Assembly (NCBI GenBank): GCA_963930775.1
Contig: OZ005706.1
Span: forward strand, 7,494,428-7,558,427
Source of the DNA: Cliona cf. orientalis
Taxonomy: Eukaryota > Porifera > Demospongiae > Clionaida > Clionaidae
Reading direction: 5' to 3'
DNA length: 64,000 nt
A program made the position numbers and the translations under genes. Positions 5,701 through 48,099 of this stretch are shown here, in pieces. Below the pieces are notes generated by a model. That model had not been told where the DNA came from and did not search any database. It saw nothing but the letters and a program-made list of their open reading frames with translations. The first letter of the stretch is position 1. Each line of letters starts with the position of its first letter.

Positions 5701-8268
5701 CAGGGCCTGGCTACAGGTACTTGGACTCATGGTCATGGCATGTAGACTGCTATTTAAAATATGGTATAGGTGATCAACATTATTGGACTATAGCTATTAT
5801 ACTAGCAATCTGTGATACTTTCACTGTCGTGGTAGCTTCTCAGGCCTAGGCATTGGGGTACCAACCCCATGCCTGTGTGCTTTCAAAGAAATCTTGTGAC
5901 TTTTGCGAAGGTTCACCCCACACAGATGATTTTCATCATCACTAGTATATTATAGCATTGAACCCACGGAGGATCCAAAGTACAAGAATACCACATCTAA
6001 TGACTGCTAACTCACATGTGTTTTTGCTGTCGACAGTTGCCCCACTATCAGTGTGGTCTGAGTCTCCATCAGTCGCTGGCTCCTCTACCACTTCCTGGAA
6101 ACACAGAAAATGGAGCTACTCAACAAATCCATCCACTAGGGTCTGTTAACTTTACCTCAGTCTGTTGTGGAGTGAACTGGTAGTCCCCACAGGAGAGCTG
6201 TACAACACCTAGACTGGACAACTCTGCTTCCTGCTCACTGGAGAGAGGAAAGATGGCTTGCTGGACAGAAAGAGGCATTTGAAAGATCAGCTTGATACTT
6301 CCGAGACTAATACGACAAAGCTTCAGATGTGTTATATTCAGCGTCTTCTGCAAGTTGCCAATGAAGCTATGGATGTGGTTTGTGCTACAGCTATCGAAAG
6401 CATCATCCAGTGTCACGATCATGTTGGAGTAACCCTCTTCCCTCATTTCACCAACTTTTGGCGGACACTCAAACACGCGGCGCTCACCGTACTTAGCAAA
6501 GTCCTTCTTGTACTTGGCTAGCTTCTCTTTGTCTTGCTCTGTTCCTAGTTTGTTCACCAGATGCTCCAGCATACGATAATTGAAGAATGAACAGTAGTCC
6601 TTGACAACGGACATGACAGCATCGACAGTCTTAGCGTCAGCTAGTCCTGGTAGCTGGTGGCGAAGTGGAGGCAGGCCAGAATCGTGGTAGGTCGGTTTTA
6701 TCGGGCCGAGTAAATCCAAGTGGCTGGATATTTCTGAGATGGAGATGAGTCTACTCTTCAGAGAGTCCCTCATGGCAGCAAAGATCTCTTGAAACTTGTA
6801 CATCAGCTCCTCCGAGTCGGTGTAGAGCTTTTGGTGAAGCTGCTCCTTTTCTTCCTTGCACAGTTTGTCAGGACTGAGAATGGGAAACCTACTGCCAGCA
6901 GTTGGAGTTGCATCAGGAGAATCTGATATTAAATTTTGTACAGACACTATACTCAACAATTGAACAAGGAATACTGAATGATAGTTACAAAATTAATTAT
7001 GACTAACCTTTGGACTGAGAGGTGGTGGTTGCCATAGGACTAGATCCCTCTTCAGTTTGATGAACTCCATCACTCACTGCACCAGCTACACATCATAATA
7101 CACCATCACTGTCGGCCGAAAATTCATATGCAAGAAGACGTACCTTGGTGTTCCACTGTAGCCCCTTCACTGTCAGCAGGCTGTGTACCAGCATCAGGCG
7201 ACTTTATAGCATTACCACTATCTGTAAAATGGCAGTACACATTGATGAAAGTATTCTCTGAGTTAATGCTGTAATTTAGCTGACCTTTAGACTCTTGGAT
7301 ATCACTTGTTGCCACCTTCAACCTCTCCATGTCTCTCTCCACATGATCCACTTCAACACTTACACTCACTGCAACAGATAAAAATAAAATTTCTCTCTTC
7401 AAAAATATACTAAAAAATCGAACTCAGTTTATGCTTACTTTGGTGCTCAGCAGCTAATTTCTTGAAGAGTGCCCTGTCGACCCTAGCGATGGCTTTGAGC
7501 AGAGACCTCCACGACGGCTCATGGAACTTGCTTGTGTTGTAGTTGTGTTTGATCCAGTGCTTGAGGGCATCATTCCAACAGCCAACGTTGTCTCCAGGGT
7601 GGTTCTGTTTGATGGTGTCGATGAGGGAGAGACGGAGTCCAAGGAACCCACTGACCTGCTCCCACTTAGCAGCCACTGAGCTGCACTCATCAATCACTAT
7701 GTTCCAGTCATCCTCCTCTGGCAAGAAAAAACCATCAATATCAATGAGTTATTCATCAGCTCATACAATACTATGCCATATCTTATAGTGGAACATTTTC
7801 GAGGAATTCAATTTTCATGGATGTAGGCAATCTATACCATTTCGGATTTAAATTTCGCTGCTTATCATACATATTGTACAATCACACTATTTGGGGGTCT
7901 GATTTTCGTACTGTGCTCAGTTATTCATGAAAACAGCAAAAATTGTATCCCTCAAAAAATTTTAGCTATACAGTAGCTAGCTACAGTGTATTAAATCACA
8001 GGTATCTTATCGTCACATGATTACATACCCAAAGTTGTGTCATCCACTTTAGAGAGAATCTCTTGATCTTCTATAAAAATAATATCATGAATATCATTAA
8101 TGAACGGCACTGATGGCAGGCATTGCTGAGAGACCAACCTTGGTCGATAGGTCCAGGGTTGAGCTCAACATCTCCAGACATGATGAGACGCAGGGCAATG
8201 ACCAACCAGGACGCTCCGAGCAGGAGTGACCCAAACCACGCCCACCACACAACACACAAATCACACAT
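2749..8268 (-). CDS. Paralogue A: 2A leader - Death domain - unnamed domain - ankyrin repeats
   Basis: A ten-exon gene is inferred from splice signals and paralogue comparison: 8139-8268, 8029-8070, 7439-7717, ~7285-7371, ~7143-7222, ~7009-7087, 6156-6946, 6016-6094, 3832-3971, 2749-3768. Exon 1 has a hydrophobic stretch (residues ~7-29) followed by the 2A motif GDVELNPGP. Exon 3 is a Death domain (motifs W..V...LGL....ID.I, ..C...AL..WI, PSWRSLL.A). Exon 7 is a ~260-residue domain with the core CSFFNYRMLEHLVNKLGT and VTLDD. Exon 10 has about nine ankyrin repeats (TPLHYAA...HLDIVRYLV pattern). Death and ankyrin domains suggest a cytosolic signalling scaffold, and the 2A site would split off the leader during translation. 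No stop or frameshift was seen. The protein is roughly 850-900 residues. Exon borders of the small linkers are approximate. Confidence 0.75.
4627..5037. mobile_element. MITE in the large intron of paralogue A
   Basis: The ends are inverted copies of TACCGTAAATCTGGAAA (left) and TTTCCAGATTTACGGTA (right). The interior is made of TTTCG/CGAAA-rich sequence with internal hairpins (for example the CGTAGTCGACAGGGACTACG block). There is no coding capacity. It is followed by a palindrome at about 5036-5066 built on TACCCC...GGGGTA. The rest of the intron 3972-6015 shows no supported gene. Confidence 0.75.
8149..8175 (-). other. 2A (StopGo) motif of paralogue A
   Basis: The nine codons read GDVELNPGP, matching the canonical D-[VI]-E-x-N-P-G-P recoding motif. 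It lies 31 residues after the first methionine and directly behind a hydrophobic helix. Known behaviour of the family: the ribosome skips the last Gly-Pro bond and continues. Confidence 0.85.
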
Positions 8269-8780: not shown

Positions 8781-9270
8781 TCTCTAGGACCCAAGCATCA
8801 AGCCGAGGATCGAGAACGGGCTCTTTGAGTGGCTAGCGTGGTGCCGAGGGAGTTTCCCCACATTCATGACACCTACTGAGCTCAGCAAATGTGGCCTAAT
8901 CGTGGACACCAGTTATGTGTCGCAGGTCGCTCTTCAAGACCTCAAACCAAACGAAACGCACTTGGAATTCCACAAGAAAATGTTTAACATCACCCGGCTG
9001 ATTCTGAAGACGATTGGGCCAGCTTCTGGTAACGTGATGTTTGTCGGTCACGCTGCTACGCTGGAGGCTTGTACCAGACAGCTAGTTGGAGCTCAGCCCC
9101 GCACCGCCCAGGAGCTGACCAAGATTGTCCAGAAGATCCCCTACTGTGGACTTTGTGTGTGTCAGGAGAGCGAGTTTGGAAAGAACAGCACTTGGGACTT
9201 TATCGATCCTCCCATCCCACCTCTCACTCACGCACCAAACATCCGATTTGATTGGAGATGCCTGCAGTGA
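8781..9270 (+). pseudogene. UBASH3/STS phosphatase C-terminal fragment 1
   Basis: This segment matches the last ~160 codons of the UBASH3-like gene at 40760-42007, from the ENGLFEW region to the stop, and keeps the VGHA histidine motif and the DPPIPPLTHAPNIRF tail. The first half of the phosphatase domain (RHGE position) and the SH3 and UBA regions are absent, replaced by unrelated upstream sequence. The frame is open, but the piece lacks the catalytic N-terminal half, so it is best read as a duplicated gene tail. Confidence 0.8.
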
Positions 9271-9830: not shown

Positions 9831-12800
9831 TTACTGAAGTTTATGATGAATGGACTCTAAATATTGTACAACATGGTGGTGACCTTGGCTACGTGCAGTG
9901 TCCAGTGGTGTCTCATTGCACCATCCTCTAACGTCAGGAGGACAGTGGAGCACTTCAACAAAGAATCTAACAAGTTGAAGGTGGCCATTGTAGGCAGCTA
10001 GATGAAGAGGAGTGTCGTTATTCTTGTTAGTACACAGTGGGTCACAGTGTTGCTCCAGGGTGAGGTACTGCACTACCTCAAGATGACCGTGTTGAGCTGC
10101 CTTGTGCAGCGGTGTTACTCTCTCACTGTCCAAGTGCGATGGATTACAGTTACACTGTTCTACTAAGTATTTGATGATGTGCAGATGTCCTCCTTGGGCA
10201 GCATGATGAAGGGCAATTCTACCTCCAAGTCCAATAGTCCTACCCTGGTACTCAACAGGTTGAGCAATGTTAGAGTCACAGCTTAGTTCATCGATGAAGA
10301 ACTTAACTATTTCCAAGTGTCCACTGAAAGCTGCACGGTGGATAGGAGCAGCTCCGTCTTAGTGACTATGTCCTTGAGTGGAAGAAACTTGCTTAGTTCA
10401 TTCACTAGATATCTCACGACATTAATGCCCCCACCATCAGAAGCTAGATGTAGTGGAGTAGAGCCATTGTCAGCACAACACAGTGGATCCATCTGTTGCT
10501 CGGCAACCAGATAGCGCACTATATCAAGATGTTTACCAGATGCTGCATAATGAAGAGGTGTGAATGCTCGATTGTCTTGACTTGCTGGACTACATCCCCT
10601 CTCTTCGATGAAATATCTCAGCACTCCAAGCTGTCCATATCGAGCTGAGTAGTGAAGAACATTCGCTCCAAACTGGCCTTCTTTCTGTAGTGGATCAAAT
10701 TGCTTCTCCTCAATGAGTTCTTTTACTTTCTTCAAGTCTCCCCTGCGTGATGCTCGAAATAGTTCATTTTTAGTTGATGCACCAGCTACCCCATGTCCCA
10801 TTCCCATTCCAAGATCACCTAATTCTCTGTCCACCAGATCCTGGGAATGGAATATGGGACATTAGAACAGCCCAGACCAGTAGCAGTCAGTGATCTGACT
10901 CACCTCACTGAACTGTGTCACTCCGGCTGTAGTGCCAGTGATAACACTGCTCCTCCCTAGTGCTGAGTCAGCACTGATGGAGGCAGTATCCCCAGGTTTG
11001 CCCACAGCCAGTTCAGCAGCCATCGATGACAACTCAGCATCATCTATAGTCAAGCAAAGTAATGCTGCATGGGCTGTAGTGGGGGGAGCCTGAGTGGCCA
11101 CAACAGCGGATGTGAAAAAAAAGATCAGCTGAGTACTAGCGCAGACTTGAGCTCCAAGTTTAATAGGACAAGCAAAGTTTAACACATCCACCTATAAAAT
11201 CCAGCATACAACTAGCAAAAAATTAGAGTGGTATGGGGATAGCTATTTGAATATTCAACAGACTATATATCCGTGGAGCCACACAATTAAGTTATTTTGA
11301 TGATTGTACCACCATACATGTGTTGCACGCTGGATGTATAGATGTACATGTATCATTTAGGCTCGCTCAGGCTCACCCCAATTAATGGATGAATAGATGC
11401 TTATCATTGTTTGATTTGAAGGATACAAGAGAGGCCATTATTAAGGGTATGCTCCAAACAATATATGGTTTGTACATCTAGTGCCATACCTGTGCATGTA
11501 CATGATTGTGGAATCAAAATGAAGGCTTGTCCCCCTTTACGAGTCTATAAGCCGTTATACCATGTATGCATGCATGTAAATATTCGTGATTGGGGAATAA
11601 GAATGAAGGTTTGTCCCAGGCCCATTCTCAGATCTTCAAAAGTATTGAAACCATAGAGGATCCAGAGTACAAAAAATCACATCTAACTCACATGTATTTT
11701 TGCTGTCAACAGTTGCCCCACTATCAGTGTGGTCTGAGTCTGTATCAGTCGCTGGCTCCTCTACCACTTTCTGCAAACACAGAAAATGGAGCTACTCAAC
11801 AAATCCATCCACTAGGGTCTGTTAACTTTACCTCAGTCTGTTGTGGAGTGAACTGGTAGTCCCCACAGGAGAGCTGTACAACACCTAGACTGGATAACTC
11901 TGCTTCCTGCTCACTGGAGAGAGGAAAGATGGCTTGCTGGACAGAAAGAGGGATTTGAAAGATCAGCTTGATGCTTCCGAGACTAATGCGACAAAGCTTC
12001 AGATGTGTTATATTTAGTGTCTTCTGCAAGTTGCCAATGAAGCTATGGATGTGGTTTGTGCTACAGCTATCGAAAGCATCATCCAGTGTCACAATCATGT
12101 TGGCGTAGCCCTCTTCTCTCATTTCACCAACATTTGGCGGACATTCAAACACACGGCGCTCGCCGTACTTAGCAAAGTCCTCCTTGTACTTGGCTAGCTT
12201 CTCTTTGTCTTGCTCCGTTCCTAGTTTGTTCACTAGGTGCTCCAGCATACGATAATTGAAGAATGAACAGTAGTCCTTGACAACGGACATGACAGCATCG
12301 ACAGTCTTAGCGTCAGTTAGTCCTGGTAACTGGTGGCGTAATGGAGGCAGGCCGGAATCGTGGTAGGTCGGTTTTATCGGGCCGAGTAAATCCAAGTGGC
12401 TGGATATTTCTGAGATGGAGATGAGTCTACTCTTCAGAGAGTCTCTCATGGCAGCAAAGATCTCTTGAAACTTGTACATCAGCTCCTCCGAGTCGGTGTA
12501 TAGCTTTTGGTGAAGCTGCTCCTTTTCTTCCTTGCACAGTTTGTCAGGACTGAGAATGGGAAACCTACTGCCAGCAGTTGGAGTTGCATCAGGAGACTCT
12601 GATATTAAATTTTGTGCAGACACTATACTCAACAACTGAACAAGGAATATTAGTTAGAAATTTAATTATGACTAACCTTTGGACTGAGAGGTGGCGGTTG
12701 CCATAGGACTAGACCCCTCTTCAGTTTGACATATTCCTTCACTCATTGCACCAGCTACACATCATAATACACCATCACTGTCGGCTGAAAATTCACATGC

Positions 12801-13960
12801 AAAAAGACGTACCTTGGTGTTCCACTGTAGCCCCTCCACTGTCGGCAGGCTGTGTAGCAGCATCAGGCAAATTTATAGCATTACCGCTATCCGTAAAATG
12901 GCAGTACACATTGATGAAAGTATTCGCTGAGTTAATGCTGTTATTGTAGCTGACCTTTAGACTCTTGGATATCACTTGTTGTCACCTTCAACCTCTCCAT
13001 GTCTCTCTCCACATGATCCACTTTAACACTTACACTCACTGCAACAGATATAAAATTTAATGAAATTTTCCCTCTTCAAAAATATACTAAAAATTGACCT
13101 CAGTTTATGCTTACTTTGGTGCTCAGCAGCTAATTTCTTGAAGAGTGCCCTGTCGACCCTAGCGATGGCTTTGAGCAGAGACCTCCACGACGGCTCATGG
13201 AACTTGCTTGTGTTGTAGTTGTGTTTGATCCAGTGCTTGAGGGCATCATTCCAACAGCCAACGTTGTCTCCAGGGTGGTTCTGTTTGATGGTGTCGATGA
13301 GGGAGAGACGGAGTCCAAGGAACCCACTGACCTGCTCCCACTTAGCAGCCACTGAGCTGCACTCATCAATCACTATGTTCCAGTCATCCTCCTCTGGGAA
13401 GAAAAAACCATGAATATCAATGAGTGTATTTATCAGCTCATACAATATTATGCCATAAATACATGTATATATAAAGCGGAAAATTTTCGAGGGTTACAAT
13501 TTCAACGGATATAGGTGATCTTTACCACTTCACCAGTTCAATTTTCGCTGACGTACGATGATGCTCATTATAGTACAATAGTACTTATTTGACATTCTTA
13601 TACTGAGTTTTTTCACGAAAATAGCAAAATTGTACCTTTCGAAAAAATTTCTGTTAGTTATGCAGCAGGTATTTGAAATCACTGGATTCTTCATAAAAAA
13701 CATCATTACACAGTTACATACCCAAAGTTGTGTCATCCACTTTAGAGAGAATCTCTTGATCTTCTATAAAATAATATCATGAATATCATTAATGAACGGC
13801 ACTGATGGCAGGCATTGCTGAGAGACCAACCTTGGTCGATAGGTCCAGGGTTGAGCTCAACATCTCCAGACATGATGAGACGCAGGGCAATGACCAACCA
13901 GGACGCTCCAAGCAGGAGTGACCCAAACCACGCCCACCACACAACACACAAATCACACAT
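9831..13960 (-). pseudogene. Paralogue B: 2A-Death-ankyrin gene with ankyrin frameshift
   Basis: It has the same exon order as paralogue A: leader/2A 13831-13960, Death domain about 13110-13400, unnamed-domain exon about 11832-12622, linker exon near 11710-11775, SADSALGRSS exon about 10912-11050, ankyrin exon 9831-10840. Relative to the other copies about 10 bases are missing near 10353-10360, between ankyrin repeats 4 and 5, which shifts the frame. Residues after LPLKDIVT become unrelated and stop, while the last 4-5 repeats continue in another frame. A shortened four-repeat product is possible. Apart from this the exons look open and are very close in sequence to A and C, so the break is recent. 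Confidence 0.7.
13841..13867 (-). other. 2A (StopGo) motif of paralogue B
   Basis: GDVELNPGP, identical in protein sequence and placement to paralogue A, at the end of a 130-base first exon (13831-13960) whose donor is GTTGGT. Confidence 0.85.
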
Positions 13961-14119
13961 CAGCTGGTATTAATTATAATTTGTTGATCAAAAGTGTAAA
14001 TAGGAGGGCGTGGCTGATCTGACGACAATCTGATTGGTCAGGAGAAGGTTGGGCGGAGCCTGGACGACAGATAGACCCACCAGCAGATCAACGACACTCG
14101 TAACTCTAGGAAGAACAAA

Positions 14120-15177: not shown

Positions 15178-16845
15178 TTACTGAAGTTTAGGATGAATGG
15201 ACTCTAAATATTGTAAAACATGGTGGTGACCTTTGTAACGTGCTTGTTCCAGTGGTGTCGTGTTGAGCTGTCCTCTAATGTCAGGAGGACAGTGGAGCAT
15301 TTCAACGAAGAATCTAACAATTTGAAGGTGGCCATCTAAGGCAGCATCATGAAGAGGAGTGTTGTTATTCTTCTTAGTACACAGTGGGTCACAGTGCTGC
15401 TCCAGGGTGAGGTACTGCACTACCTCAAGATGACCGTGTTGAGCTGCCATGTGCAGCGGTGTTACTCTCTCACTGTCCAAGTGCAATGGATTACAGTTAC
15501 ACTGTTCTACTAAGTATTTGACGATGTGCAGATGTCCTCGTTGGGCAGCATCATGAAGGGCAATTCTACCTCCAACTCCAGTAGTCCTACCCTGGTACTC
15601 AACAGGTAGAGCAATGTTAGGGTCACAGTTTAACTTGGTGATAAAATATTTAATAATCCCTAAATGTCCACGTAGAGCAGCAAAGTGGATAGGAGCACTT
15701 CCATTGATGCCTCTACTAGTGACTATATCCACAAATGGAAGAAACTTGCTTAGTTCATTCACTAGATATCTCACGATATTAATGTCCCCACCCTGAGAAG
15801 CTAGATGTAGTGGAGTGGAGCCATCGTCAGCACAACACAGTGGATCCATCTGTTGCTCGGCAACAAGATAGCGCACTATATCAAAATGTTTACCGTCTGC
15901 TGCATAATGAAGAGGTGTGTCTCCTCGATTATCTTGACTTGCTGGATGACATCCCTTCTTTTCAATAAGATATGTCAGCACCCCTAGATGTCCATGTTGA
16001 CTTGCGTAATGAAGAGCATTCTTTCCAAACTTTCCTGCTTTCTGCAGTGGATCAAATTGCTTCTCCTCAATGAGTTCTTTTATTTTCTTCAAGTCTCCCC
16101 TTTCTGATGCTCGATGTAGTTCATTTTTAGTTGCTGCACCAGCTATACCATGTCCCATTCCCATTCCAAGATCACCTAATTCTCTGTCCACCAGATCCTG
16201 GGAATGGAATATGGTACATTAGAACAGCCCAGACCAGTAGCAGTCAGTGATCTGACTCACCTCACTGAACTGTGTCACTCCGGCTGTAGTGCCAGTGATA
16301 ATACTGCTCCTCCCTAGTGCTGAGTCAGCACTGATGGAGGCAGTATCCCCAGGTTTGCCCACAGCCAGTCCAGCAACCATCGATGACAACTCAGCATCAC
16401 CTTTAGTGACACAAAGTATCATAAACCAGACTAGTGTCATGTAGTGGGGTGAGCCTGAGCGGCTACAACAGTAGATATGTGAAAAAATACTGATTACTAG
16501 TGTCTAGGCATGCTCATAAAAAAATTCAGCATACAACTCACCAAAAGAATTAGAGTGGTATACGGTATTTCAATATGTAATAGATTATTAATTTTCCCAA
16601 TATATCCGTAGAGAGAGCCACACTAAGCTATTTTGATGATTGTACCACCATAAATGTATTGACGCTAGATGTATGGATGTATTGATCATTTAGGCTAACC
16701 CCAATTAATGGATGAATAAATGTTTATCATTGTCTAATTTGAGAGAGGAGGGGTGCACCATTGTTAAGGGTGTGCTCCAAACAATGGCCTGTGCATGTAC
16801 ATGATTGTGGAATCAAAATGAAGGCTTGTGCCAGTGGCTGATCCT

Positions 16846-16880
<35 letters not shown>

Positions 16881-19382
16881 AGATAGGATGGCTAGCCACC
16901 CCCTTTCACTTTTCTGCAACATAAGTAATAGTGTTGGAGACGTCCACCATTATCAATCAGCCACCCCCTTGTACCAGTATTGTTTACTATGGGTACCCAC
17001 CCCATCAGCCACCTTCCATGCAAAATTCTGGATCAGTGCCTATTGTCCCAAGGCCCATTCCCACATCTTCAAAACCACATGTAGCATTGAAATGATCCAG
17101 AGTACAAGAAAATTACGCTTTGTAACTGCTAACTCACATGTGTTTTTGGTGTCGATAGTTGCCCCACTATCAGTGTGGTCTGAGTCGCTGGCTCCTCTAC
17201 CACTTCCTGGAAACACAGAAAATGGAACTACTCAACAAATCCATCCACTAGGGTCTGTTAACTTTACCTTAGTCTGTTGTGGAGTGAACTGGTAGTCCCC
17301 ACAGGAGAGCTGTACAACACCTAGACTGGATAACTCTGCTTCCTGCTCACTGGAGAGAGGAAAGATGGCTTGCTGGACACAAAGAGGGATTTGAAAGATC
17401 AGCTTGATGCTTCCGAGACTAATGCGACAAAGCTTCAGATGTGTTATATTTAGCGTCTTCTGCAAGTTGCCAATGAAGCTATGGATGTGGTTTGTGCTAC
17501 AGCTATCAAAAGCATCATCCAGTGTCACGATCATGTTGGCGTAGCCCTCTTCCCTCATTTCACCAACTTTTGGCGGACACTCAAACACGCGCCGCTCACC
17601 GTACCTAGCAAAGTCCTCCTTGTACTTGGCTAGCTTCTCTTTGTCTTGCTCCGTTCCTAGTTTGTTCACCAGATGCTCCAGCATACGATAATTGAAGAAT
17701 GAACAGTAGTCCTTGACAACGGACATGACAGCGTCGACAGTCTTAGCGTCAGCTAGTCCTGGTAGCTGGTGGCGTAATGGAGGCAGGCCGGAATCGTGGT
17801 AGGTCGGTTTTATCGGGCCGAGTAAATCCAAGTGGCTGGATATTTCTGAGATGGAGATGAGTCTACTCTTCAGAGAGTCTCTCATGGCAGCAAAGATCTC
17901 TTGAAACTTGTACATCAGCTCCTCCGAGTCGGTGTATAGCTTTTGGTGAAGCTGCTCCTTTTCTTCCTTGCACAGTTTGTCAGGACTGAGAATGGGAAAC
18001 CTACTGCCAGCAGTTGGAGTTGCATCAGGAGACTCTGATATTAGATTTTGTACAGACACTAAACTCAACAATTGAACAAGGAATACTGAATGATAGTTAG
18101 AAGATTAATTATGACTAACCTTTGGACTGAGAGGTGGAGGTTGCCATAGGACTAGACCCCTCTTCAGTTTGACATGCTCCATCACTCATTGCACCAGCTA
18201 CACATCATAATACACCATCACTGTCGGCCGAAAATTTGCATGCAAAAAGACGTACCTTGGTGTTCCACTGTAGCCCCTCCACTGTCGGCAGGCTGTGTAC
18301 CAGCATCAGACGACTTGATAGCGTTACCGCAATCTGTAAAATGGCAGTACACATTGATGAAAGTATTCGCTGAGTTAATGCTGTTATTGTAGCTGACCTT
18401 TAGACTCTTGGATATCACTTGTTGTCACCTTCAACCTCTCCATGTCTCTCTTCACACGATCCACTTCAACACTTACACTCACTGCAACAGATATAAATGA
18501 AAATTTCTCTTCAAAAATTTACTGAAAAATCAAACTCAGTTTATGCTTACTTTGGTGCTCAGCAGCTAATTTCTTGAAGAGTGCCCTGTCGACCCTAGCG
18601 ATGGCTTTGAGCAGAGACCTCCACGATGGCTCATGGAACTTGCTTGTGTTGTAGTTGTGTTTGATCCAGTGCTTGAGGGCATCATTCCAACAGCCAACGT
18701 TGTCCCCAGGGTGGTTCTGTTTGATGGTGTCGATGAGGGAGAGACGGAGTCCAAGGAACCCACTGACCTGCTCCCACTTAGCAGCCACTGAGCTGCACTC
18801 ATCAATCACTATGTTCCAGTCATCCTCCTCTGGCAAGAAAAAGCCATGAATAACAATAAGTATATTCATCAGCTCATACAATAGTTGCCATAATTATAAT
18901 ATATAATGGAAAATCATTATTTAAGTTTCATGGATATAGGCCATCTATACTATTTCGGATTTAATTTTTACTATTCATCATATATATGGTACAATTGTGC
19001 TATTTGGGGGATCTGATTTTCGTACTGTGCTCAGTTATTCATGAAAACAGCAAAAATTGTATCCCTCGAAAAATTTTAGCTTTACAGTAGCTAGCTACAG
19101 TGTATTAAATCACAGATATCTTATCATCACATGATTACATACCCAAAGTTGTGTCATCCACTTTAGAGAGAATCTCTTGATCTTCTATAAAAATAATATC
19201 ATGAATATCATTAATGAACGGCAGTGATGGCAGGCATTGCTGAGAGACCAACCTTGGTCGATAGGTCCAGGGTTGAGCTCAACATCTCCAGACATGATGA
19301 GACGCAGGACAATGACCAACCAGGACGCTCCGAGCAGGAGTGACCCAAACCACGCCCACCACACAACACACAAATCACACAT
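15178..19382 (-). CDS. Paralogue C: 2A leader - Death - unnamed domain - ankyrin repeats
   Basis: It is the same ten-exon design as A, with all recognisable exons open: leader/2A 19253-19382, Death domain about 18550-18830, unnamed-domain exon about 17268-18058, short linker exons between them, SADSALGRSS exon about 16264-16404, ankyrin exon 15178-16197 (337 residues after its first Met). The ankyrin exon is the most divergent of the array: several repeats differ (KNALHYASQHGHLGVLTYLIEKKGC, APIHFAALRGHLGIIKYFI). The unnamed domain is almost identical to A and B. Intron 8 contains a 34-base G run (16846-16879). Together with A this is the best candidate for a functional short-leader member. 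Confidence 0.75.
16846..16879. repeat. Poly-G tract of 34 bases
   Basis: An uninterrupted G run lies in an intron of paralogue C. Its length may be unreliable in an assembly. A second run of about 25 G lies at 28928-28952 in the equivalent intron of paralogue E. Confidence 0.9.
19263..19289 (-). other. 2A (StopGo) motif of paralogue C
   Basis: GDVELNPGP again; the preceding helix differs from A by one residue (VIVLRL instead of VIALRL). Confidence 0.85.
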
Positions 19383-20873: not shown

Positions 20874-23800
20874 TTACTGAAGTTTAGGACGAATGGACTC
20901 TAAATATCGTACAACATGGCGGTGACCTTCACTACGTGCAGTGTCCAGTGGTGTCTCATTGCGCCATCCTCTAACATCAGGAGGACAGTGGAGTACTTCA
21001 ACGAAGAATCTAACAAGTTGAAGGTGGCCATTTCTGGCAGCATCATGAAGAGAAGTGTTATTTTTCCTGTTAGTAAACAGTGGGTCACAGTGCTGCTCCA
21101 GGGTGAGGTACTGCACTACCTCAAGATGACCCTTCTGAGCTGCAAGGTGCAGCGGTGTTACTCTCTTGTGGTCCACATGTGATGGATTACAGTTACACTG
21201 TTCTACTAAGTATTTGATGACGTGCAGATGTCCTTGTTGGGCAGCAGTATGAAGGGCAATTCTACCTCCAAGTCCAGTAGTCCTACCCTGGTACTCAACA
21301 GGTGTAGCAATAGTAGGGTCACAGTTTAAGTCAGCGATGAAGAAGTTTACTATTTCTAAGTGTCCATTATATGCTGCGTGGTGGATAGGAGCATTTCCAT
21401 TGATGCCTCTGCTAGAGACTATGTCCTTGAGTGGAAGAAACTTGCTTAGTTCATTCACTAGATATCTCACGACATTAATGTCCCCCTCCTGAGAAGCAGC
21501 ATGTAGTGGAGTAGAGCCATTGTCAGCACAACACAGTGGATCCATCTGTTGTTCGGCAACAAGATAGCGCACTATATCAAGATGTTTACCATATGCTGCA
21601 TAATGAAGAGGTGTCATTGCTCGATTGTCTTGACTTGCTGGACTACATCCCCTCTCTTCGATGAAATATCTCAGCACTCGTAGCTGTCCAAACTGAGCTG
21701 AGTAGTGAAGAACATTCGCTCCAAACCGGCCTTCTTTCTGTAGTGGATCAAACTGCTTCTCCTCAATGAGTTCTTTTACTTTCTTCAAGTCTCCCCTGCC
21801 TGATGCTTGAAATAGTTCATTTTCAGTCGATGCACCAGCTACACCATGTCCATGTCCCATTCCTGTTCCAAGACCACCTAATTCTCTGTCCACCAGATCC
21901 TGAGAATGGAATATGGAACATTAGAACAGCCCAGACCAGTAGCAGTCAGTGATCTGACTCACCTCACTGAACTGTGTCACTCTGGCTGTAGTGCCAGTGA
22001 TAACACTGCTCCTCCCTAGTGCTGAGTCAGCACTGATGGAGGCAGTATCCCCAGGTTTGCCCACAGCCAGTCCAGCAACCATCGATGACAACTCAGCATC
22101 ACCTATAGTGACAGTATTGATCATAGCAATTGTGAAAAATCCAGCATACATGTACATGTGAGTGCAGATTTGAGCACCAGGTTTAATCGGCCAAGAAAAT
22201 TAAAGTTCAGGTTTCTCTGACACACCCATGGACCCAAAAAATATAGCATACAACTCGCAAAAAAATTTGAACAATATAGGGCACTTCAATATGCAAGACT
22301 ATTATTTCGCAATACATATAGCCACACAATAAACTGAGCTATTATATTGACCATCATACATGTATTGCATGCTGAATGCAGACATGTATAGATGCATCAT
22401 TAAATTTTAGGCTGACTCAGGCTTATCCCAACTAATGGATGAATTGATGTTTATCATTGACTAATTTGAGAGAGGGAGGGATGCACCATATTGTTAAAGG
22501 TATGCTTCAAACAATGGTTTGTACATCTAGTGCCATACCTATGCATGTACATGATTGTGAAATCAAAAAATGAAGGCTCATCCAGGCAATGATCCAGGGC
22601 TGGGGGTAGATAGGCTTTCCCTTCATTTTTATGTAACAGAGTTGGAGACGTCCACCATTATCCTGTATAGTTTACTGTGGGTAGCCACCCCATCAGCTGC
22701 CTTCCATGCAAAATTTCTGGATCAGTGCCTATCGTTCCAAGGCCCATTCCCACATCTTCAAAACCATAATATTATGTAGCATTGAAAAATATGGAGGATC
22801 CAGAGTACAAGAAAATTACATCTAGTAACTGCTAACTCACATGTGTTTTTGCTGTGGACAGTTGCCCCACTATCAGTGTGGTCTGAGTCTCCATCAGTCG
22901 CTGGCTCCTCTACCACTTCCTGGAAACACAGAAAATGGAGCTACTCAACAAATCCATCCACTAGGGTCCGTTAATTTTACCTCAGTCTGTTGTGGAGTGA
23001 ACTGGTAGTCCCCACAGGAGAGCTGTACAACACCTAGACTGGATAACTCTGCTTCCTGCTCACTGGAGAGAGGAAAGATGGCTTGCTGGACAGAAAGAGG
23101 GATTTGAAAGATCAGCTTGATGCTTCCTTGATTAACGCGACACAGCCTGAGCACCACATCAGAAGGAATCTTCAGGATCTTCCGCAAGTTGCCAATGAAT
23201 ACATTGAGGTGACTGACAGCGCAATTGTCAAACGAATCATCCAGTGTTACGAATAAGTTAGCGCACCCCTCTTCACTCATTTTCCCAACCTCTGAAGGAC
23301 ACTGTGTAATGCAGCACTCGGCATACTTGGTGAAGTCCTCTTTGTAGCTGGCCATGTTCTCCTTGTCTTGCTTCGTCCCGAATTCATCGATGATGTGCTC
23401 CACCATGTGGTAGTTGAAGAATGAACAGTAGTCCTTGACAATGGACATGACAGCATCGACAGTCTTAGCATCAGCTAGTCCTGGTAGCTGGCTTCGCAGT
23501 GGAGATCGACCAATATCTACATATGTTGGTTTGATTGATCCTAAGCACTCCAAATTACTGACTAGCTCAGCGACAGAGACTTTTTTCTCGCGTAGAGATT
23601 TCTTTGTGGATGTGAAAAGTTTTTGAAATTTGAATATCATTTGCTCAGACTCGAAACTGCATTGCTCAAAAATTTGTTGTTTATGTTTGGGAGCAGTGGA
23701 GGGAACGGACTCTGAAATGGTCACCACTGGCACCAATTCTGAACCACCTTGAACAATACCTACACATATAATATCATTATATGATTATGATAAAAATTGA

Positions 23801-28952: not shown

Positions 28953-30269
28953 AAGCTTCCCCTCCAAACTCCCAAATTAAGATCACAATAAGTCACCAAA
29001 TCAAATCAGTAGCATTTGCTTTTGATCAAAAGTGCTAAATACGCCCACTCATTTATCACACTTCCACACCAAATTTTTGTTGCTAGATGAAACCCTGCAA
29101 ACTAATGGATGAATAGATGTTTATCATTGTCTAATTTAAGAGAAAGGGGTGCACTATTGTTAAGGGTGTGCTCCAAACAATGATTTGCACATTTAGTGCA
29201 TGCATATGACTGTGGCATCAAAGTGAAGGCTCGTCCACGGGCCCTCTTCAAAGAAATTCGTATCTAGTCACTGCTAACTCACATGTGTTTTTGCTGTGGA
29301 CAGTTGCCCCACTATCAGTGTGGTCTGAGTCTCCATCAGTCACTGGCTCCTCTACCACTTCCTGGAAACACAGAAAATGGAGCTACTCAACAAATCCATC
29401 CACTAGGGTCTGTTAACTTTACCTCAGTCTGTTGTGGAGTGAACTGGTAGTCCCCACAGGAGAGCTGTACAACACCTAGACTGGATAACTCTGCTTCCTG
29501 CTCACTGGAGAGAGGAAAGATGGCTTGCTGGACAGAAAGAGGGATTTGAAAGATAAGCTTGATGCTTCCGAGATTAACGTGACACAGCCTGAGCGCAACA
29601 TCAGAAGGAATCTTCAGGATCTTCCGCAAGTTGCCAATGAATACATTGAGGTGACTGACGGCGCAATTGTCGAACGAATCATCCAGCGTCACGAATAAGT
29701 TAGCGTACCCCTCTTCACTCATTTTCCCAACCTCTGAAGGACACTGTGTAATGCAGCACTCGGCATACTTGGTGAAGTCCTCTTTGTAGCTGGCCATGTT
29801 CTCCTTGTCTTGCTTCGTCCCGAACTCATCGATGATGTGCTCCACCATGTGGTAGTTGAAGAATGAGCAGTAGTCCTTGACAACAGACATGACAGCATCG
29901 ACAGTCTTAGCGTCAGCTAGTCCTGGTAGCTGGCTTCGCAGTGGAGATCGACCAATATCTACATATGTTGGTTTGATTGATCCTAAGCACTCCAAATTAC
30001 TGACTAGCTCAGCGACAGAGACTTTTTCCTCACGTAGAGATTTCTTCGTGGACGTGAATAGTTTTTGAAACTTGAATATCATTTGTTCAGACTCGAAACT
30101 GCATTGCTCAAAAATTTGTGGTTTATGTTTGGGAGCAGTAAAGGGAACAGACTCTGAAATGGTCACCACTGGCACCAATTCTGAACCACCTTGGACAATA
30201 CCTACACACATATTATTATGATAAAAATTGAAACTGATAATGTATAATAACAATAATATTATAGCAACA

Positions 30270-32786: not shown

Positions 32787-32884
32787 TTGCTTTTGTATAC
32801 TCTCTATGTGTAGTGTTTGTAAATAATATGAATTGAGTGTATATATGTGGATGGACCATTGTCTCTATCATCACTGGACTCAAA

Positions 32885-35757: not shown

Positions 35758-36318
35758 ATGCTTGTCTCTTTTTATACTTTCTTGTGTGTTTATTTTTAGA
35801 TTACTTGCAGTTGTGTATGCTACACTATTTTTACTAAAAATAGAGCTTCACCATGATGTCATAAAAAATTTTGGTGCTGTGAGCATGAGAGTTCATGTTG
35901 TGCATGTTGCTGTGCAGACTAATTTGTGGTTGCAGGTAGGAACCCTATCCCACAGTGATCAACGACATCATGGCTGTTTCTAAATTTAACTCGTGACCTG
36001 GAAGTATATTCTGTGCAAGTGGTGTGCGTGACTCGTTAGATTTAGTGTACTGGCCGTGCATTATATAGAAAACAATTGCAAAAAGCTACAAGAAAGTACC
36101 ATGGAAGCTTAGAGGTAAGCAAGGACTACTTGTTTACTATCCAGTAATCTTTAGCTAATGGTTGTACCTTTCGGTAGGTGGCGGTATAACGCTACCGCGG
36201 ATAGCTGCTTATCTCGCAGTGTGCGGTTAGGCAAACTCGTGGGCAGGACAGTCCCTCATATCTTACACTGCCCACGCTCAATTAAATGGATTCTACCTTG
36301 AATCTACCCTTGGGATCA

Positions 36319-36415: not shown

Positions 36416-37189
36416 ATAGCAACAAACCTCTAGAGTCACTGGAGCTAGTTTGAGCTTCACCAGAAGCAGTTTCTGCACACTCCTTACTATCCTGATGTTT
36501 GTCACCAGTGCCTGTATTAAGATGCCACTAGCAGTAATAAATAAAATAATAATTACAAAGAAGTTTTTGTTTTCTCACCTTGATGCTCTGCTGCTAACTT
36601 CTGAAACTGACGCTTGTCTACTTCAGCCACAGCTCTGAGAAGATTCCTCCATGATGGTCGGCCAAACAGCTTCGTGTTATAGTTTTGTTTGATCCACTCC
36701 TTGAGGGCTTCATTCCAACAGCCAGCACTGTCCCTGGGGTTGTCCCGTTTGATAGTGTCGATTTGTTTAAACGGGAGACCTAAATATGCGCTGATTTTTT
36801 CCCAGTCACTGGATAATGATTTGCACTTGATGACCAAAATGTTCCAATGCTCATCTTCTGCAAATACATGCATAATTAAATATAAACGCGATAGAATGTA
36901 GTTTAACTTACTAAACACAGTATTATCCACTGAGGCAAGAATTTTCTTGATTTCTTGATAATCTATTTTTATGAAAGTGCAAAATATAATTACACAGTCA
37001 CAGATACAGTATACATGAAAAATTTCGCTGGATAAATATTTCACCAATATGGTAAGGGTCATGCATCTATGCAATCTTTAACACAGGACTAAAAAATAAT
37101 TTTTTTTCCAATGAGAGCAGGTGGCGAATTTGACGAATACTTTCTCCTGGCCAAAATTTCTACGTTACTACATGTATCATGATCTCACT

Positions 37190-37216
37190 TGGTCCAGGGT
37201 TGAGTTCCACATCTCC
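37190..37216 (-). other. 2A (StopGo) motif of paralogue E
   Basis: GDVELNPGP closing the 227-codon leader exon; same intron phase as in the other copies. It is intact although the gene is broken further downstream. Confidence 0.85.
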
Positions 37217-38218
37217 AGACAAGATGAGTCGTTGATGTATGACCAGTTGAGCTGCTCGAAGCTGGATTGACTCAGACCACACCCACCCCACTCCAGAGTA
37301 TACAAATATCTCACAGGAAACGTGGCTAACTGGCTCCTTGGTGACCTTTGAACCCACCACATCGCAGCTCGGTCTGGCTGCATTGTAGTCTAACTGTTTA
37401 CAAAGTTCTGCTGTTAGGAAACACCATTTCAGAAACAGCCACAGAAGATTATAAAATTTGCAGCCAATGGCCAATGTTCCACACACTACAGCCAACAGTT
37501 TGAACAGTTTCTTTACGATCTTCCAAACTATAGCCAACAGTTTGAACATGATCTTACAAACCACAGTCAACAGTTTCTTTATGATCTTCCAACAGAAACC
37601 CAGCGGCAAAGAGACAAAGAAGACAAGGAGCCAATGGCGTCTCTTGAATGACCGCCACTGCTTGGAGTGAATCACGTGATATAGAGAGTAGACGAGAAGG
37701 AGCAGTAGCACCCATACACTACACACGTCCCCCTCGCTCATCTGCCTCTTGTAGTGACGGCTGGACAACCTCCTAATTGCAAGGACCCCGCTGATCCGGC
37801 GACGATCATATTTGTCAGGGAGAAGATCGGCACGAGCCTGGGAAACGTCGAGATCAACTCCATCCATCATCGGAGCACTGGTGATGGGACCTCCACTGGT
37901 GTACAACAAGCAACAAAATGGCGGATGTTTATCGACACACTTCAGAGTACGGGGAGACTTTTCTTGCTGTCAGTTCCACAAAATAATGAAGGAATAAGCT
38001 TAAAGATATTTGGTAGATCGATCACAAATCTCTTCACCGAGACGGAGGTTTCTAGGCTTGATGAGCTGTACAGAGGCCAATGGTAAAACTGCTTCGCTGG
38101 CACTGCGGTGGATTCGAGGGGGATCCCCCATCTGCAGTGGGCGGGGCTCGTAAGTCACATGTAGAAACTGCTGACTCAACACATATTTACACGTGGTTGT
38201 TTTCTGAGTGCATCAGCT

Positions 38219-42584: not shown

Positions 42585-45500
42585 TTACTGAAGTTTAGGA
42601 TGAATGGACTCTATAAATATATAGTGTACAACATGGTAGTGACCTCGGCTACGTGCCAAGTCCAGTGGTGTCACGTTGCACCATCCTCTAACGTCAGGAG
42701 GACAGTGGAGCACTTCAACGAAGAACCTGACAAGGTGAAGGTGGCCATTGTAGGCAGCAGCATGAAGAGGAGTGTTGTTATTCTTCTTAGTACACAGTGG
42801 GTCACAGTGCTGCTCCAGGGTGAGGTACTGCACTACCTCAAGATGACCTTTCGAAGCTGCAAGGTGCAGCGGTGTTTCTCTCTCACTGTCCAAGTGCGAT
42901 GGATTACAGTTACACTGTTCTACTAAGTATTTGATGATGTGCAGATGTCCTCCTTGAGCAGCATCATGAAGGGCAATTCTACCTCCAAGTCCAGTAGTCC
43001 TACCCTGATACTCGAGAGGAAATATAATATTATTTGGGTTGCAGTTTAATTCAATAGTGAAGAACTTCACTATTTCCAAGTGTCCAGCCAAAGCTGCGAG
43101 ATGGATAGGAGCTGCTCCTTGAATGCCTCTGCTAGTGACTATGTCCTTGAGTGGATAAAGCTCGCTTAGTTCATTCACCAGATATCTCACGACATTAATG
43201 TCCCCACCCTGAGAAGCTTGATGTAGTGGAGTATCGCCATCGTCAGCACAACACAGTGGATCCATCTGTTGCTCGGCAACAAGATAGTGGACTATATCAA
43301 GATGTTTACCACCTGCTGCATAATGAAGAGGTGTGAATGCTCGATTGTCTTGACTTGCTGGACTACATCCCCTCTCTTCGATGAAATATCTCAGCACTCG
43401 TAGCTGTCCATATCGAGCTGAGTAGTGAAGAACATTCGCTCCAAACTGGTCTTCTTTCTGTAGTGGATCAAATTGCTTCTCCTCAATGAGTTCTTTTACT
43501 TTCTTCAAGTCTCCCCTGCCTGATGCTTGAAATAGTTCATTTTCAACTGATGCACCAGCTACACCATGTCCCATTCCCATTCCAAGATCACCTAATTCTC
43601 TGTCCACCAGATCCTGGGAATGGAATATGGGACATTAGAACAGCCCAGACCAGTAGCAGTCAGTGATCTGACTCACCTCACTGAACTGTGTCACTCCGGC
43701 TGTAGTGCCAGTGATAACACTGCTCCCCCCTAGTGCTGAGTCAGCACTGATGGAGGCAGTATCTCCAGGTTTGCCCACAGCCAGTCCAGCAGCCATTGAT
43801 GACAACTCAGCATCACCTATAGTCACATAAAGTATAGAAATATGCAGGGCCTGTATATAGCGGGGTGCGACTACGACAGCTGGTACAATCATGATTCAAA
43901 ATAGCTTAGTGTTGCTCTACAGATATTATTGCAAAATAGTGTATTGCCTATTCAAATGCCACCATATCGGTGAGCGTGTCAGAGAAACTAGATTTTGCTC
44001 TGCTCATTAAACTTGTAACTCAAATCTGCACTAGTACTCAGCATTCTTTTCACATCGGCCATACATGTGTTGTACACTGGATGTATAGATGCATCATTTA
44101 GGCTGACTCAGGCTAACCCAATTAAAGGATGAATTGATGTTTATCATTTTCTAATTTGAGAGAGGGAGGGGTGCACCATTGTTCATTGTGTATTGTTAAG
44201 GGTATGCTCCGAATAATGGTTTGTACATCTAGTGCCATACCTATGCATGAACATGATTGTGGAATCAAAACGCACCCAGGGGCTGATCCAGGCATGAAAG
44301 GTTGTTGGGACCCAGAATTCGAACCTAGCGTAGAAGAGATCGTGGACTATCCGATGATATCATTATGGCGTTTCTCTCAGTTCGCTTTCTCTAGCGAGCT
44401 CGCTTTCAGGGCAGGGGGATTTCCCTATTCAGTCGAGCACATGGCAGGTGAAGGTCAACCGGCTCAAGCCGCGCGCTCCAATACTGTACGTGTATACGGA
44501 GCATGAGCAGTTTGTCAATGTGTCCTAGTTCGAATTTATGGCGGCGTATTCATGAGGGACTCTGGATGTAGTCTCTAAGTTTTTCATTACGTCCAGAGTC
44601 CTAATTAGAAACAAAGAATTCGGCTCTTGCTATGATGAAATTATGATGAAATTGTGATGAAATGATGATGAAACCTATGATGAAACTTATGATGTAATTG
44701 CTCTGAATACTGCTTCAAAATGTTTAGCGCGCATGAAAGGTTGTTGGGACCCAGAATTCGAATCTAGCGTAGAAGAGATCGTGGACTATCCGATGATATC
44801 CTTATGGCGTTTCTCTTAGTTCGCTTTCTCTAGCGAGCTTGCTTTCAGGGCAGGGGGATTTCCCTATTCAGTCTGAGCACATGGCAGGTGAAGGTCAACC
44901 GGCTCAAGCCGCGCGCCCCAATACTGTACGCGTATACGGAGCATGCGCAGTTTGTCAATGTGGCCTAGTTCGAATTTATGGCGGCGTATTCATGAGGGAC
45001 TCTGGACGTAGGCTCTAAGTTTTTCATTATCTCCCCAGTAGCAATTTACTTTTCTGAGGTAATTGTAGTGTAATCTATGATGAAATTATGATGCAACCTA
45101 TGAGGTAATTATGAAAAAATTCAGGGCCTCGCTGGAGCCTTTCTGGGACTTGAAAATCAGTAAATATGTAGAGTATCTTACGCGTGTATCCGGCGAATAC
45201 ATTACAAGCTGAGCACTACTTTCTCTGAGAAGTACTGTTGGTTGAACTTCACGTGTTTTCTTGGCTTACGTAATGCCGTGGATAAATAAAGCTAGTCTTA
45301 TGCTATATATAGCACGCATCATTGTCACAAGGGGCTGGCCCGCGCGCGACTGCAGCAACGTGACCAACCTGAAGTTCGGAAGGAATACCGTGCTGTCGAG
45401 TTCATCTCTGTGATTGAAGCATCGAAACTTGTCACTATCAAGGTTGAAAGTCAATCTTAGACGCCATCTCCATGATTTCTGGGGCGAGCATCGATCGATG

Positions 45501-48099
45501 TGTACGCATTCTATTGACAATCTTTTACCACATGCACCATTACACTATGCAGCTACTGGGGAGATGGTTAAGGGTTCATTTAATATAGGAGACATCCACC
45601 ATTATCAATCAGCCACCCCCCTTGTACCAGTATGGTTTTAATTTTACTATGGGTAGCTACCCTATCAGCCACCTTCCATGCAAAATTTCTGGATCAGCGC
45701 CTATTGTCCCAAGGCCAATTCCATATCTTCAAAATCGCATTTAGCATTGAAAATCATGGAGGATCCAGAGAGTACAAGAAATTATACCTTATAACTGCTA
45801 ACTCACATGTGTTTTTACTGTTGATAGTTGCCCCACTATCAGTGTGGTCTGAGTCTCCATCAGTCGCTGGCTCCTCTACCACTTCCTGGAAACACAGAAA
45901 ATGGAGCTACTCAACAAATCCATCCACTAGGGTCTGTTAACTTTACCTCAGTCTGTTGTGGAGTGAACTGGTAGTCCCCACAGGAGAGCTGTACAACACC
46001 TAGACTGGATAACTCTGCTTCCTGCTCACTGGAGAGAGGAAAGGTGGCTTGCTGGACAGAGAGAGGGATTTGAAAGATCAGCTTCAGACTTCCAGATCCA
46101 ATGCGACATAGTCGTAGCGTTATATTGGAGATATTCAAAATTTTCTGCAAGTTGCTGACAAATGCTGATAAATGGTTCACATTGCACTTGTCAAATGAAT
46201 CATCCAGTGTCACAAACATATTCGCTTGTCCTTCTTCATAAATTTCACCAACTTCCGATGGACACTCGAACACATGACGCTCACCATACTTAGTAAAGTC
46301 CTCCTTGTACTTGGCTAACCTCTCTTTGTCTTCCTCTGTTCCAAGCTTCTGTATGATTAGTTCCACCATCCGATAATTAAAGAATGAACAGTACTTATTG
46401 ACCACTGACATGGCGTCATCGACAGACTCAGATTTTCTCAGTTCTGGCAATTGATGTCTGAAAACAGGTTCACCGGAATCATCAAATGTTGGCTTTAACT
46501 GTCCCAAGCATTCTAAATGACGAGTCAGAGTTTTTGCTGAAACATTTCTCCTCACTAAAGAGTCTGTTGTCGACGTAAATAGTTCCTGGAATTTGTACAT
46601 CATATCTTCTGACTCGGCATAAAGCTTTTGGTGCAGTTCTCGTCTCCTCTCGTCACTCATATCCTTCAAATTCAAGCAGTGGAAGGTGAAACGAGGCCTA
46701 GCAACCACAGCAGTCGGAGTACTGGTCCTGGGAGAAGCAGGTTTGTCTATCAGAAAGAATAATAACTCACTGATGAGTCCTGCACATGTAATCAACCATA
46801 GTAGGTCAATGTAGTACCTTGTACATGTGCAACACCTTCTTCCTGTGAATTATTACTTTCTTTTGGTTCATCACTGGAAGCTACAAATATTATAGAATAA
46901 TATTATGATAAGCACTACAACTTTGCACATACACATACCAGACTGAGAGTGCTTTTCAGCCAATCTATTAAATAAAAGCTTGTCAATTTCTGCCACAGCT
47001 TTGAGAAGACTCCTCCATGAAGGTCTACCAAATGTCTCTGTGTTGTAGTTTCGTTTAATCCAGTGTTCGAGGGCTTCACCCAAGCAGAGGTAGTTGTCCC
47101 CAGAGCCTTTGATGTTGTTGATCACATCACATGACAGGCCGAGGGAGATACTCAACTCTTTCCACTTTGCAGCTAGTGATTTGCACTCTTTCACCACAAC
47201 ATTCCAGTCCTCTATTTCTGCAGTGGTATAAAACAAGTTGTATAGTCGTGGCAGCTGTAGATGGCATATATTGAAATCATACCAAAAATTTTGTCATCAA
47301 CAGTCATAAGAATTTCTTCAACCTTTTGATCTAAATAATGAGAGAATAATATTACCATATCTACATGTATGCAAAAACTTATAAGAAAAGGATTGGAATA
47401 CCTTGGTCGAGAGGTCCAGGGTTAAGTTCCACATCTCCAGACAAGATGAGTCGTTGACGTATGATCAGCTGAGCTGCTCGAAGCTGGATTGACCCAGACC
47501 ACACCCACCCCACTCCAGAGTACACGAATACCTCACAGGAAACGTGGCTAACTGGCTCCTTGGTGACCTTTGACCCCAACATATCATCACTCTGTCTCTG
47601 GCTCTGTCCAATATTGTAGTCTAACTGTTTACAAAGTTCTGCCGTTAGGAAACACCATTTGAGAAACAGCCACAGAAGATAATAAAATTTGTAGCCAATT
47701 GCCAATGTACCACACACTACAGCCAACGGTTTGAACAGTTTCTTTACGATCTTACAAACTACAGCCAATAGTTTGAACACGATCTTACAAACCATAGTCA
47801 ACAGTTTCTTTATGATCTTCCAACAAAATCCCAGCGGCAAAGAGACGAAGAAGACAAGGAGCCAATGGCGTCTCTTGAATGACTGCCAATGCTTGGAGTG
47901 AATCACGTGATGCAGGGAGTAGACAAGAAGGAGCAGTAGCACCCATACACTACACACGCCCCCCTCGCTCATCTGCCTCTTGTAGTGCCGGCTGTGACAA
48001 CCTCCTAATTGCAAGGACCCCGCTGATCCGGCGACGATCATACTTGTCAGGGAGAAGATCGGCACGAGCCTGGGAAACGTCGAGATCAACTCTATCCAT
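42585..48099 (-). CDS. Paralogue F: long-leader 2A-Death-ankyrin gene, leader frameshift
   Basis: Leader/2A exon 47402-48099, short exon near 47290-47325, Death domain about 46940-47220, unnamed-domain exon about 45946-46745, linker near 45810-45885, SADSALGGSS exon about 43676-43816, ankyrin exon 42585-43613 (340 residues from its first Met, slightly longer through NIIFPLEYQG). The Death domain and first two thirds of the unnamed domain differ clearly from A-E (YCSFFNYRMVELIIQKLGT; LRLCRIGSGSLKL), while everything 3' is nearly identical. One inserted base in the leader (CTGTGACAACC against CTGGACAACC, near 47994) shifts the frame after IRRLS. Translation could still begin at the downstream MSEGGVCSVW methionine and keep all hydrophobic helices and the 2A site. 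Confidence 0.7.
44292..45029. repeat. Two 299-bp direct repeats with a minisatellite between them
   Basis: 44292-44590 and 44731-45029 are nearly identical copies starting GCATGAAAGGTTGTTGGGAC. The 140-base spacer holds repeats of ATGATGAAA and an inverted copy of the GGACTCTGGA/TCCAGAGTCC motif found near the repeat ends. No coding potential is evident. It lies in the large intron of paralogue F only. Origin unknown; it could be a tandemly inserted non-autonomous element. Confidence 0.75.
47412..47438 (-). other. 2A (StopGo) motif of paralogue F
   Basis: GDVELNPGP followed by LDQG, similar to the IDQG that follows in A-C, although the leader belongs to the long class of D and E. Confidence 0.85.

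Follow-up and report, generated by a model that had tools for sequence, protein, structure and literature searches.

A window of 64,000 nucleotides from the sponge Cliona cf. orientalis (assembly GCA_963930775.1, contig OZ005706.1, positions 7,494,428 to 7,558,427) was analyzed for six paralogous minus-strand genes (g1-g6), in which a first coding exon for a hydrophobic leader ends in a StopGo (2A) motif and is followed by exons for Death, TRADD-N and ankyrin domains. StopGo recoding probably yields a membrane leader and a free Death/TRADD-N/ankyrin protein from each gene. Each gene would give one mRNA whose first coding exon specifies a membrane leader with a terminal StopGo, and the last bond of NPG^P would be skipped in most rounds as the leader leaves the ribosome. 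The first product would be a small leader of the membrane or signal type, with NPG at its end, left in or at the membrane; the second a free Death/TRADD-N/ankyrin adaptor starting with Pro, equivalent to the product of leaderless paralogues. In an unskipped minority, the Death/TRADD-N/ankyrin part would be carried on the membrane leader. The exon anatomy, the 2A core and its context, the protein-like evolution of the leader, the genome-wide association of the motif with Death exons and the leaderless counterparts can be read from the DNA; two products and dual targeting we infer, and, going by what is known of the family, the role may be that of an immune or cell-death sensor or adaptor kept in two places from one transcript. 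An earlier sequence-only reading of this DNA had made a similar proposal; its observation was real, and its interpretation is partly supported by the results below.

Six DVELNPGP motifs were located in the window, all on the minus strand, with D codons at 8172, 13864, 19286, 24613, 37213 and 47435, which bears out the six minus-strand GDVELNPGP genes described in that reading. All six carry the StopGo core octapeptide, D(V/I)ExNPGP; a seventh NPGP in the window (59484) is without DVE context. The claim that the first coding exon ends with GDVELNPGP was right about the position of the motif, but three further codons (I/L-D-Q) plus one base precede the donor in g1-g3 and g6, and one base in g4 and g5. 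The exon 1 donor is in phase 1 in 6/6 genes. When exon 1, the frame-preserving linker exon (exon 2; 42-51 bases, 14-17 codons) and the Death exon were joined in silico at GT/AG, the frame was open in 6/6 genes, so that in the predicted mRNA the motif has coding sequence in frame on both sides. As the sequence-only reading had stated, motif and intron phase were kept in copies broken elsewhere: g2, with a frame break in the ankyrin exon (10307-10861 vs. 9831-10358), g5, with a shorter ankyrin frame, and g6, in which the upstream MMDG-type part of the leader lies in another frame and MSEGG is a possible start. The same reading had called the product a Death-ankyrin protein; Death and ankyrin exons are indeed present, but the TRADD-N-type exon between them had been overlooked. 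The exons of the six genes, all on the minus strand, were as follows.

8139..8268, minus: g1 exon 1, short leader MCDLCVVWW...RLIMSG, then DVELNPGP and IDQ, phase-1 donor
8029..8070, minus: g1 exon 2, 14-codon linker, symmetric phase 1
7440..7718, minus: g1 Death exon, translation identical to the modelled g3 exon
6174..6878, minus: g1 TRADD-N-type exon
2749..3789, minus: g1 ankyrin exon, open frame
13831..13960, minus: g2 exon 1, short leader and 2A
13722..13763, minus: g2 exon 2
13116..13394, minus: g2 Death exon, Pfam Death E 0.004, below cut-off
11850..12554, minus: g2 TRADD-N-type exon, PF20694 19.2 bits, below cut-off 23.7
9831..10861, minus: g2 ankyrin region, two overlapping frames (frame break)
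19253..19382, minus: g3 exon 1, short leader and 2A
19143..19184, minus: g3 exon 2
18552..18830, minus: g3 part between exon 2 and the TRADD-N-type exon
17286..17990, minus: g3 TRADD-N-type exon, modelled, C-terminal part ferredoxin/RRM-like
15178..16218, minus: g3 ankyrin exon
24589..25264, minus: g4 exon 1, long leader (MMDGVDLDVSQAR...RLILSG) and DVELNPGP, donor one base past NPGP
24328..24378, minus: g4 exon 2
23979..24257, minus: g4 Death exon
22999..23691, minus: g4 TRADD-N-type exon
20874..21920, minus: g4 ankyrin exon
37189..37870, minus: g5 exon 1, long leader and 2A
36912..36962, minus: g5 exon 2
36580..36858, minus: g5 Death exon
29441..30130, minus: g5 TRADD-N-type exon, with helicase and DUF6589 coding stretches between it and the Death exon
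26994..27830, minus: g5 ankyrin frame, shorter than in the other copies
47402..47972, minus: g6 exon 1, long leader from MSEGG and 2A, upstream MMDG-type part in another frame
47283..47330, minus: g6 exon 2
46949..47215, minus: g6 Death exon
45965..46660, minus: g6 TRADD-N exon, PF20694 24.5 bits, above cut-off 23.7
42585..43634, minus: g6 ankyrin exon, PF12796 E 2e-53

Two leader types were found in the window, three short (g1-g3) and three long (g4-g6). The short leader has 32 residues ahead of the motif, 40 with the 2A, and reads MCDLCVVWWAWFGSLLLGASWLVIALRLIMSG or a form one residue different (8172, 13864, 19286); hydropathy gave one strong hydrophobic segment, and across the genome the frame opens three codons ahead of the leader Met in 11 of 12 copies. 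The long leader has 179-219 residues ahead of the motif and three or four hydrophobic segments. Both are thus N-terminal hydrophobic leaders with a terminal 2A, as in the sea urchin case. Hydropathy, applied to a single Death exon, a single ankyrin stretch and a single leaderless product, detected no strong segment. That the motif always follows a hydrophobic segment, as previously claimed, is loosely true, the segments of the long type stopping 79-155 residues before it.

For the long leaders the location of the released protein is less certain, because the ribosome may already be at the endoplasmic reticulum (ER) on meeting the 2A. Skipping could then happen with both products at the ER, the released Death protein slipping through the translocon or being made at the ER surface, and the partition would not be one between cytosol and exocytic pathway. 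‘Slipstreaming’ of a 2A-released protein through the translocon is known from the 2A literature. The distance between membrane segments and 2A in the long leaders, set against the 26-residue leaders of the urchin (PMC4981915), favors such an outcome. Even so it is considered unlikely, as Death, TRADD-N and ankyrin are in general intracellular domain types, and paralogues exist that lack a leader, the one tested being without a strong hydrophobic segment.

Both a Death-superfamily domain and a TRADD-N domain, as in the Amphimedon-type proteins discussed below, were recovered in the window genes, together with C-terminal ankyrin repeats (PF12796 in g6, homologous frames in the other five copies). 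A PDB sequence-profile search returned no Death match at 0.01 and only chance-level rows for the TRADD-N exon, and fold comparison was used in its place. The TRADD-N call rests on the Pfam match and strand order, because VIA-align of the TRADD-N exon model listed no TRADD chain, the best row being a nucleoporin ferredoxin-like domain. NACHT was not found downstream in the window 2A genes, whose exons are Death, TRADD-N and ankyrin; neither reverse transcriptase nor endonuclease was found in the same frame, the g2 and g6 exons scanned matching Death, TRADD-N and ankyrin. An Rfam scan of the window gave 0 matches.

The hexapeptide before the motif is RLIMSG in three window copies and RLILSG in three. 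Judged by eye, these fall in the L-rich class of PMC12846837, a 2026 study that sorts upstream hexapeptides into classes, some of them L-rich with (A/S/C)G as the last two residues ahead of D at p12, and reports a motif-6 example of the ‘LLLLSG-like’ L-rich class as active in reticulocyte lysate. The window sites share with that class the core octapeptide and the L-rich (A/S/C)G hexapeptide, and differ in being cellular, at the first-exon end of immune genes; according to the same source, which cites the urchin case, StopGo is frequent among RNA viruses but seldom found in cellular genes.

Genome-wide, DVExNPGP occurred 105 times in 216.8 Mb and GDxExNPGP 154 times, and the reversed pattern of each 0 times. 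Of the 104 located DVExNPGP sites, 55 were followed within 3 kb by a Death exon of the same strand and 1 was preceded by one, and no site had an opposite-strand Death exon on either side. When sites were placed at random, a mean of 0.27 and at most 3 (200 draws) had a downstream Death exon. At least 71/104 sites had a downstream Death, TRADD-N, ankyrin or NACHT match, and at least 38/104 had Death, TRADD-N and ankyrin all downstream. These domain classes are lower bounds, drawn from 104/105 2A sites, 150 TRADD-N, 149/150 Death, 64/199 ankyrin and 28/104 NACHT matches. Among the matches listed, 53 Death exons had a TRADD-N exon ≤4 kb behind them, and in 42 of these a 2A was present ≤8 kb upstream. 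Genes of the Death-TRADD-N-ankyrin branch usually carry the leader; in the wider Death family it is not the norm. Twelve of the 33 sites without a domain match were examined (L012-L014, L018, L020, L023-L025 and four in L068 and L069), and among these the frames of L012, L018, L020, L023, L024, L068 and L069 were scanned for domains. On contig C10, 7.5-8.8 Mb, 28 Death matches related to those of the window were observed with no located DVExNPGP there (L066 and L067 sampled).

With a long leader as query, 36 loci were retrieved, and 36/36 end in a 2A site; 24 of the matches extend far outside the motif, and the other 12 (short type) cover the last 35 residues only, motif included. Read in frame, the leaders contain no stops and have ratios of nonsynonymous to synonymous change (pN/pS) of 0.36, 0.48 and 0.49, whereas both other frames contain stops and give 0.68-1.00; by this measure the leader evolves as a protein. 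Within the motif, pairwise differences included 0 nonsynonymous changes and 95, 11 and 4 synonymous ones in groups of 14 (long), 12 (short) and 5 copies (C13-type, one C1 locus included), a zero that is partly built in because the rows were chosen by motif pattern. The grouping took 31/37 motif-bearing records, excluding L009, L010, L011, L019, L053 and L055. The 24 loci obtained from leader homology are the independent check on motif conservation.

Long leaders of contigs C18, C13, C3, C1 and C4 (19 aligned rows) share an N-terminal motif before the first hydrophobic segment, approximately [VI][DE][LF]xVxxA...K...R..S....L.I..R...H or close (written by eye), which suggests that the long leader is a small membrane protein, not just a targeting signal. 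Its true start may be MMDG or MSEG: pN/pS of the first 38 codons (0.54 in frame 0, 0.65 in frame 1, 2.74 in frame 2) failed to separate frames 0 and 1, and the basis for the MMDG start is the motif that it has in common with the C1 and C4 leaders. It was also considered whether the leader-2A exons are decaying, functionless mobile-element fragments spliced onto genes, as the same genome holds a 2A-bearing non-LTR (non-long terminal repeat) retrotransposon (L020) and a Helitron-like element (L070). This is highly improbable given the in-frame pN/pS without stops, the motif at the end of 24/24 long-type loci found by leader homology, and a Pfam scan of three leaders in which no family scored above cut-off.

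Upstream DNA was examined for 14 Death loci in which no 2A had been detected. Six of them (L048-L051, L064 and L065) have a linker-homologous exon that opens with ATG (MAQEIDDLLSKVDD..., MAEGIDRDILSKVDD... or a close variant); in 6/6 a stop in the same frame lies ≤25 codons upstream, and the Met occupies the splice-junction codon of the 2A copies. A remnant of the leader was sought in L048-L051 and not found. In a Death-exon tree of 48 rows, the six leaderless paralogues and L063 form one clade (support 100/99), and 2A presence required 7 label changes; the label covered 3.5 kb upstream only, and L015 and L021 were labelled ‘none’ because their 2A is farther off than that. First residues apart, the leaderless proteins as predicted are what skipping would release, and these paralogues are the strongest comparative argument that the free Death/TRADD-N/ankyrin protein may be a working product.

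The start sites at the linker exon could also be taken to mean that alternative first exons are used in place of recoding, exon 1 being present in some transcripts and NPGP kept in a membrane-anchored isoform. L068 and L069, each with two leader-2A exons upstream of further exons, also fit such an arrangement. It leaves unexplained, however, the recurrence of D-V/I-E-x-N-P-G-P with an L-rich (S/A)G context across leaders of differing length and type, and the V or I found at the free second residue of GDxExNPGP among the matches listed, two with Thr excepted; alternative first exons in place of recoding are regarded as an unlikely source of the two forms. The paired leader-2A exons themselves (L068 at 1226 and 1596; L069, minus strand, at 672 and 876; contig C10) differ from each other and lie 370 and 204 bases apart. 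Each pair may represent alternative first exons, or a single mRNA may contain both StopGo sites.

Several points weigh against StopGo release of a free Death/TRADD-N/ankyrin protein. Among the Death exons with a following TRADD-N exon, 11/53 had no 2A ≤8 kb upstream, and of the 149 related Death matches 88 had no DVExNPGP in that distance and 61 had one. Position p15 is L in the window copies, and the L-rich class goes with S in PMC12846837. Full activity of the foot-and-mouth disease virus (FMDV) 2A needs >30 residues of native context, which in the window copies was judged only by eye. The membrane character of the leaders was judged by hydropathy only. The Pfam Death match was below cut-off in both window copies scanned, though the Death fold was clear on fold comparison. 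Of the 14 Death loci whose upstream DNA was examined, 8 have no first exon assigned, L063 of the leaderless clade included, and in L048 an AG precedes the ATG and is a possible splice acceptor.

The closest known system is the 2A-like signal sequence of sea urchin NLR proteins (SpNLR2A; Roulston et al., 2016; PMC4981915). Its skipping efficiency in vitro was put at ~80%, and in HeLa cells the cargo of a mutant unable to recode ended up mostly in the Golgi. As described there, it shares with the window genes an N-terminal hydrophobic leader and a D(V/I)ExNPGP core before a Death-domain immune protein, and the short type is almost the same design. The urchin proteins are Death-NACHT-LRR with 26-residue leaders; those of the window, in contrast, are Death-TRADD-N-ankyrin, with long leaders of 179-219 residues as well, and have leaderless paralogues in the genome. 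The sequence-only reading knew of no described Death-ankyrin family of this kind, but the type is described in the sponge Amphimedon, in which PMC8195603 reports 357 NCOA6-clade TRADD-N proteins, most architectures consisting of 1-3 Death-like domains, TRADD-N and a variable C-terminus, with ankyrin among the commonest. The window genes resemble that expansion in their Death-like domain(s), TRADD-N and ankyrin and in being expanded in one sponge lineage. They differ from it, as it is described in PMC8195603, in the 2A leader; NCOA6-clade membership is a feature of the Amphimedon proteins, and the TRADD-N of the window was compared by architecture. Transmembrane NLR architectures in sponges are described in PMC12909245.

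No 2A on sponge Death or ankyrin genes was found in titles or abstracts of the open-licence literature searched. Rao et al. reportedly searched viral and cellular proteomes in 2025, and may already list such proteins. A 2A in APE-type non-LTR retrotransposons is said to have been described by Odon et al. in 2013. Like those elements, which have a 2A near a hydrophobic N-terminus and one such frame in this genome (L020), the window genes pair a hydrophobic leader with a 2A; unlike them, they lack the endonuclease and reverse transcriptase of L020 in the exons scanned. PMC4981915 and PMC11512398 cite 2A in non-LTR retrotransposons. Already known, then, are the urchin NLR 2A signal sequences and the Amphimedon Death-like/TRADD-N/ankyrin expansion; new are the combination of a 2A leader with Death-TRADD-N-ankyrin, the long multi-segment leaders, the other architectures and the leaderless counterparts. 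A single animal genome holds 105 DVExNPGP sites, over half of the 104 located fronting Death-domain exons, and the window family falls outside the urchin NLRs, the one well-studied cellular case. The coexistence of leader-bearing and leaderless paralogues offers a natural experiment for asking why an immune protein would come both in a form with a membrane leader and in one that lacks it, and cellular use of StopGo becomes directly testable by short reporters.

Other 2A loci of the genome have other downstream domains. NACHT exons are present in the 2A loci L012, L017, L018 and L021; a Death exon passes the cut-off in L012, falls short of it in L017 and was found via homology in L021. Roc, COR and Death matches, all below cut-off, were obtained in L023 and L024; in L069 SPRY was above cut-off and COR and Death below, behind the two leader-2A exons, and the L068 exon scanned gave no domain match. 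A cluster of DVEENPGP sites was seen on contig C5, 0.17-1.1 Mb, the core being the same as in C1 loci L012 and L018 (NACHT genes with a short hydrophobic leader). The retrotransposon frame of L020 (contig C1, 21.88 Mb) has DVEVNPGP near its N-terminus, followed by PHD, endonuclease and RVT_1. L070 (contig C1, 18.01 Mb) combines a hydrophobic leader and DIEVNPGP with helix-turn-helix matches, and an overlapping frame that runs on contains a Helitron-like domain; its post-2A part matched 39 genome pieces (contigs C1 and C2), many of them containing stops. Judged from these frames, immune genes and mobile elements share the leader-2A design. Tentatively, a first exon of membrane leader and StopGo may be a reusable module, set before Death-TRADD-N-ankyrin, Death-NACHT and, by weaker matches, Roc/COR-Death proteins, with similar modules in mobile elements. 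The long leader, with its conserved N-terminal motif and several membrane segments, might on the same tentative footing be a protein in its own right, made one-to-one with the free Death adaptor, recoding pairing a membrane component with a signalling partner.

Other coding stretches lie among and beside the six genes. A NACHT gene (52361-55080, plus strand; PF05729, E 1.7e-14) adjoins the cluster as a separate gene, with no DVExNPGP nearby. The gap between the g5 Death and TRADD-N exons holds, at 30747-35847, a plus-strand frame for a DEAD helicase and minus-strand DUF6589 frames, probably a mobile element inside an intron of g5. Copies of a histidine-phosphatase gene (PF00300) lie on the plus strand between the Death genes, at 40904-42007 and as shorter similar frames at 8788-9270, 19951-20325 and 26048-26515; the 8788-9270 piece alone gave no Pfam match at 0.01. 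These copies seem to belong to the duplicated unit.

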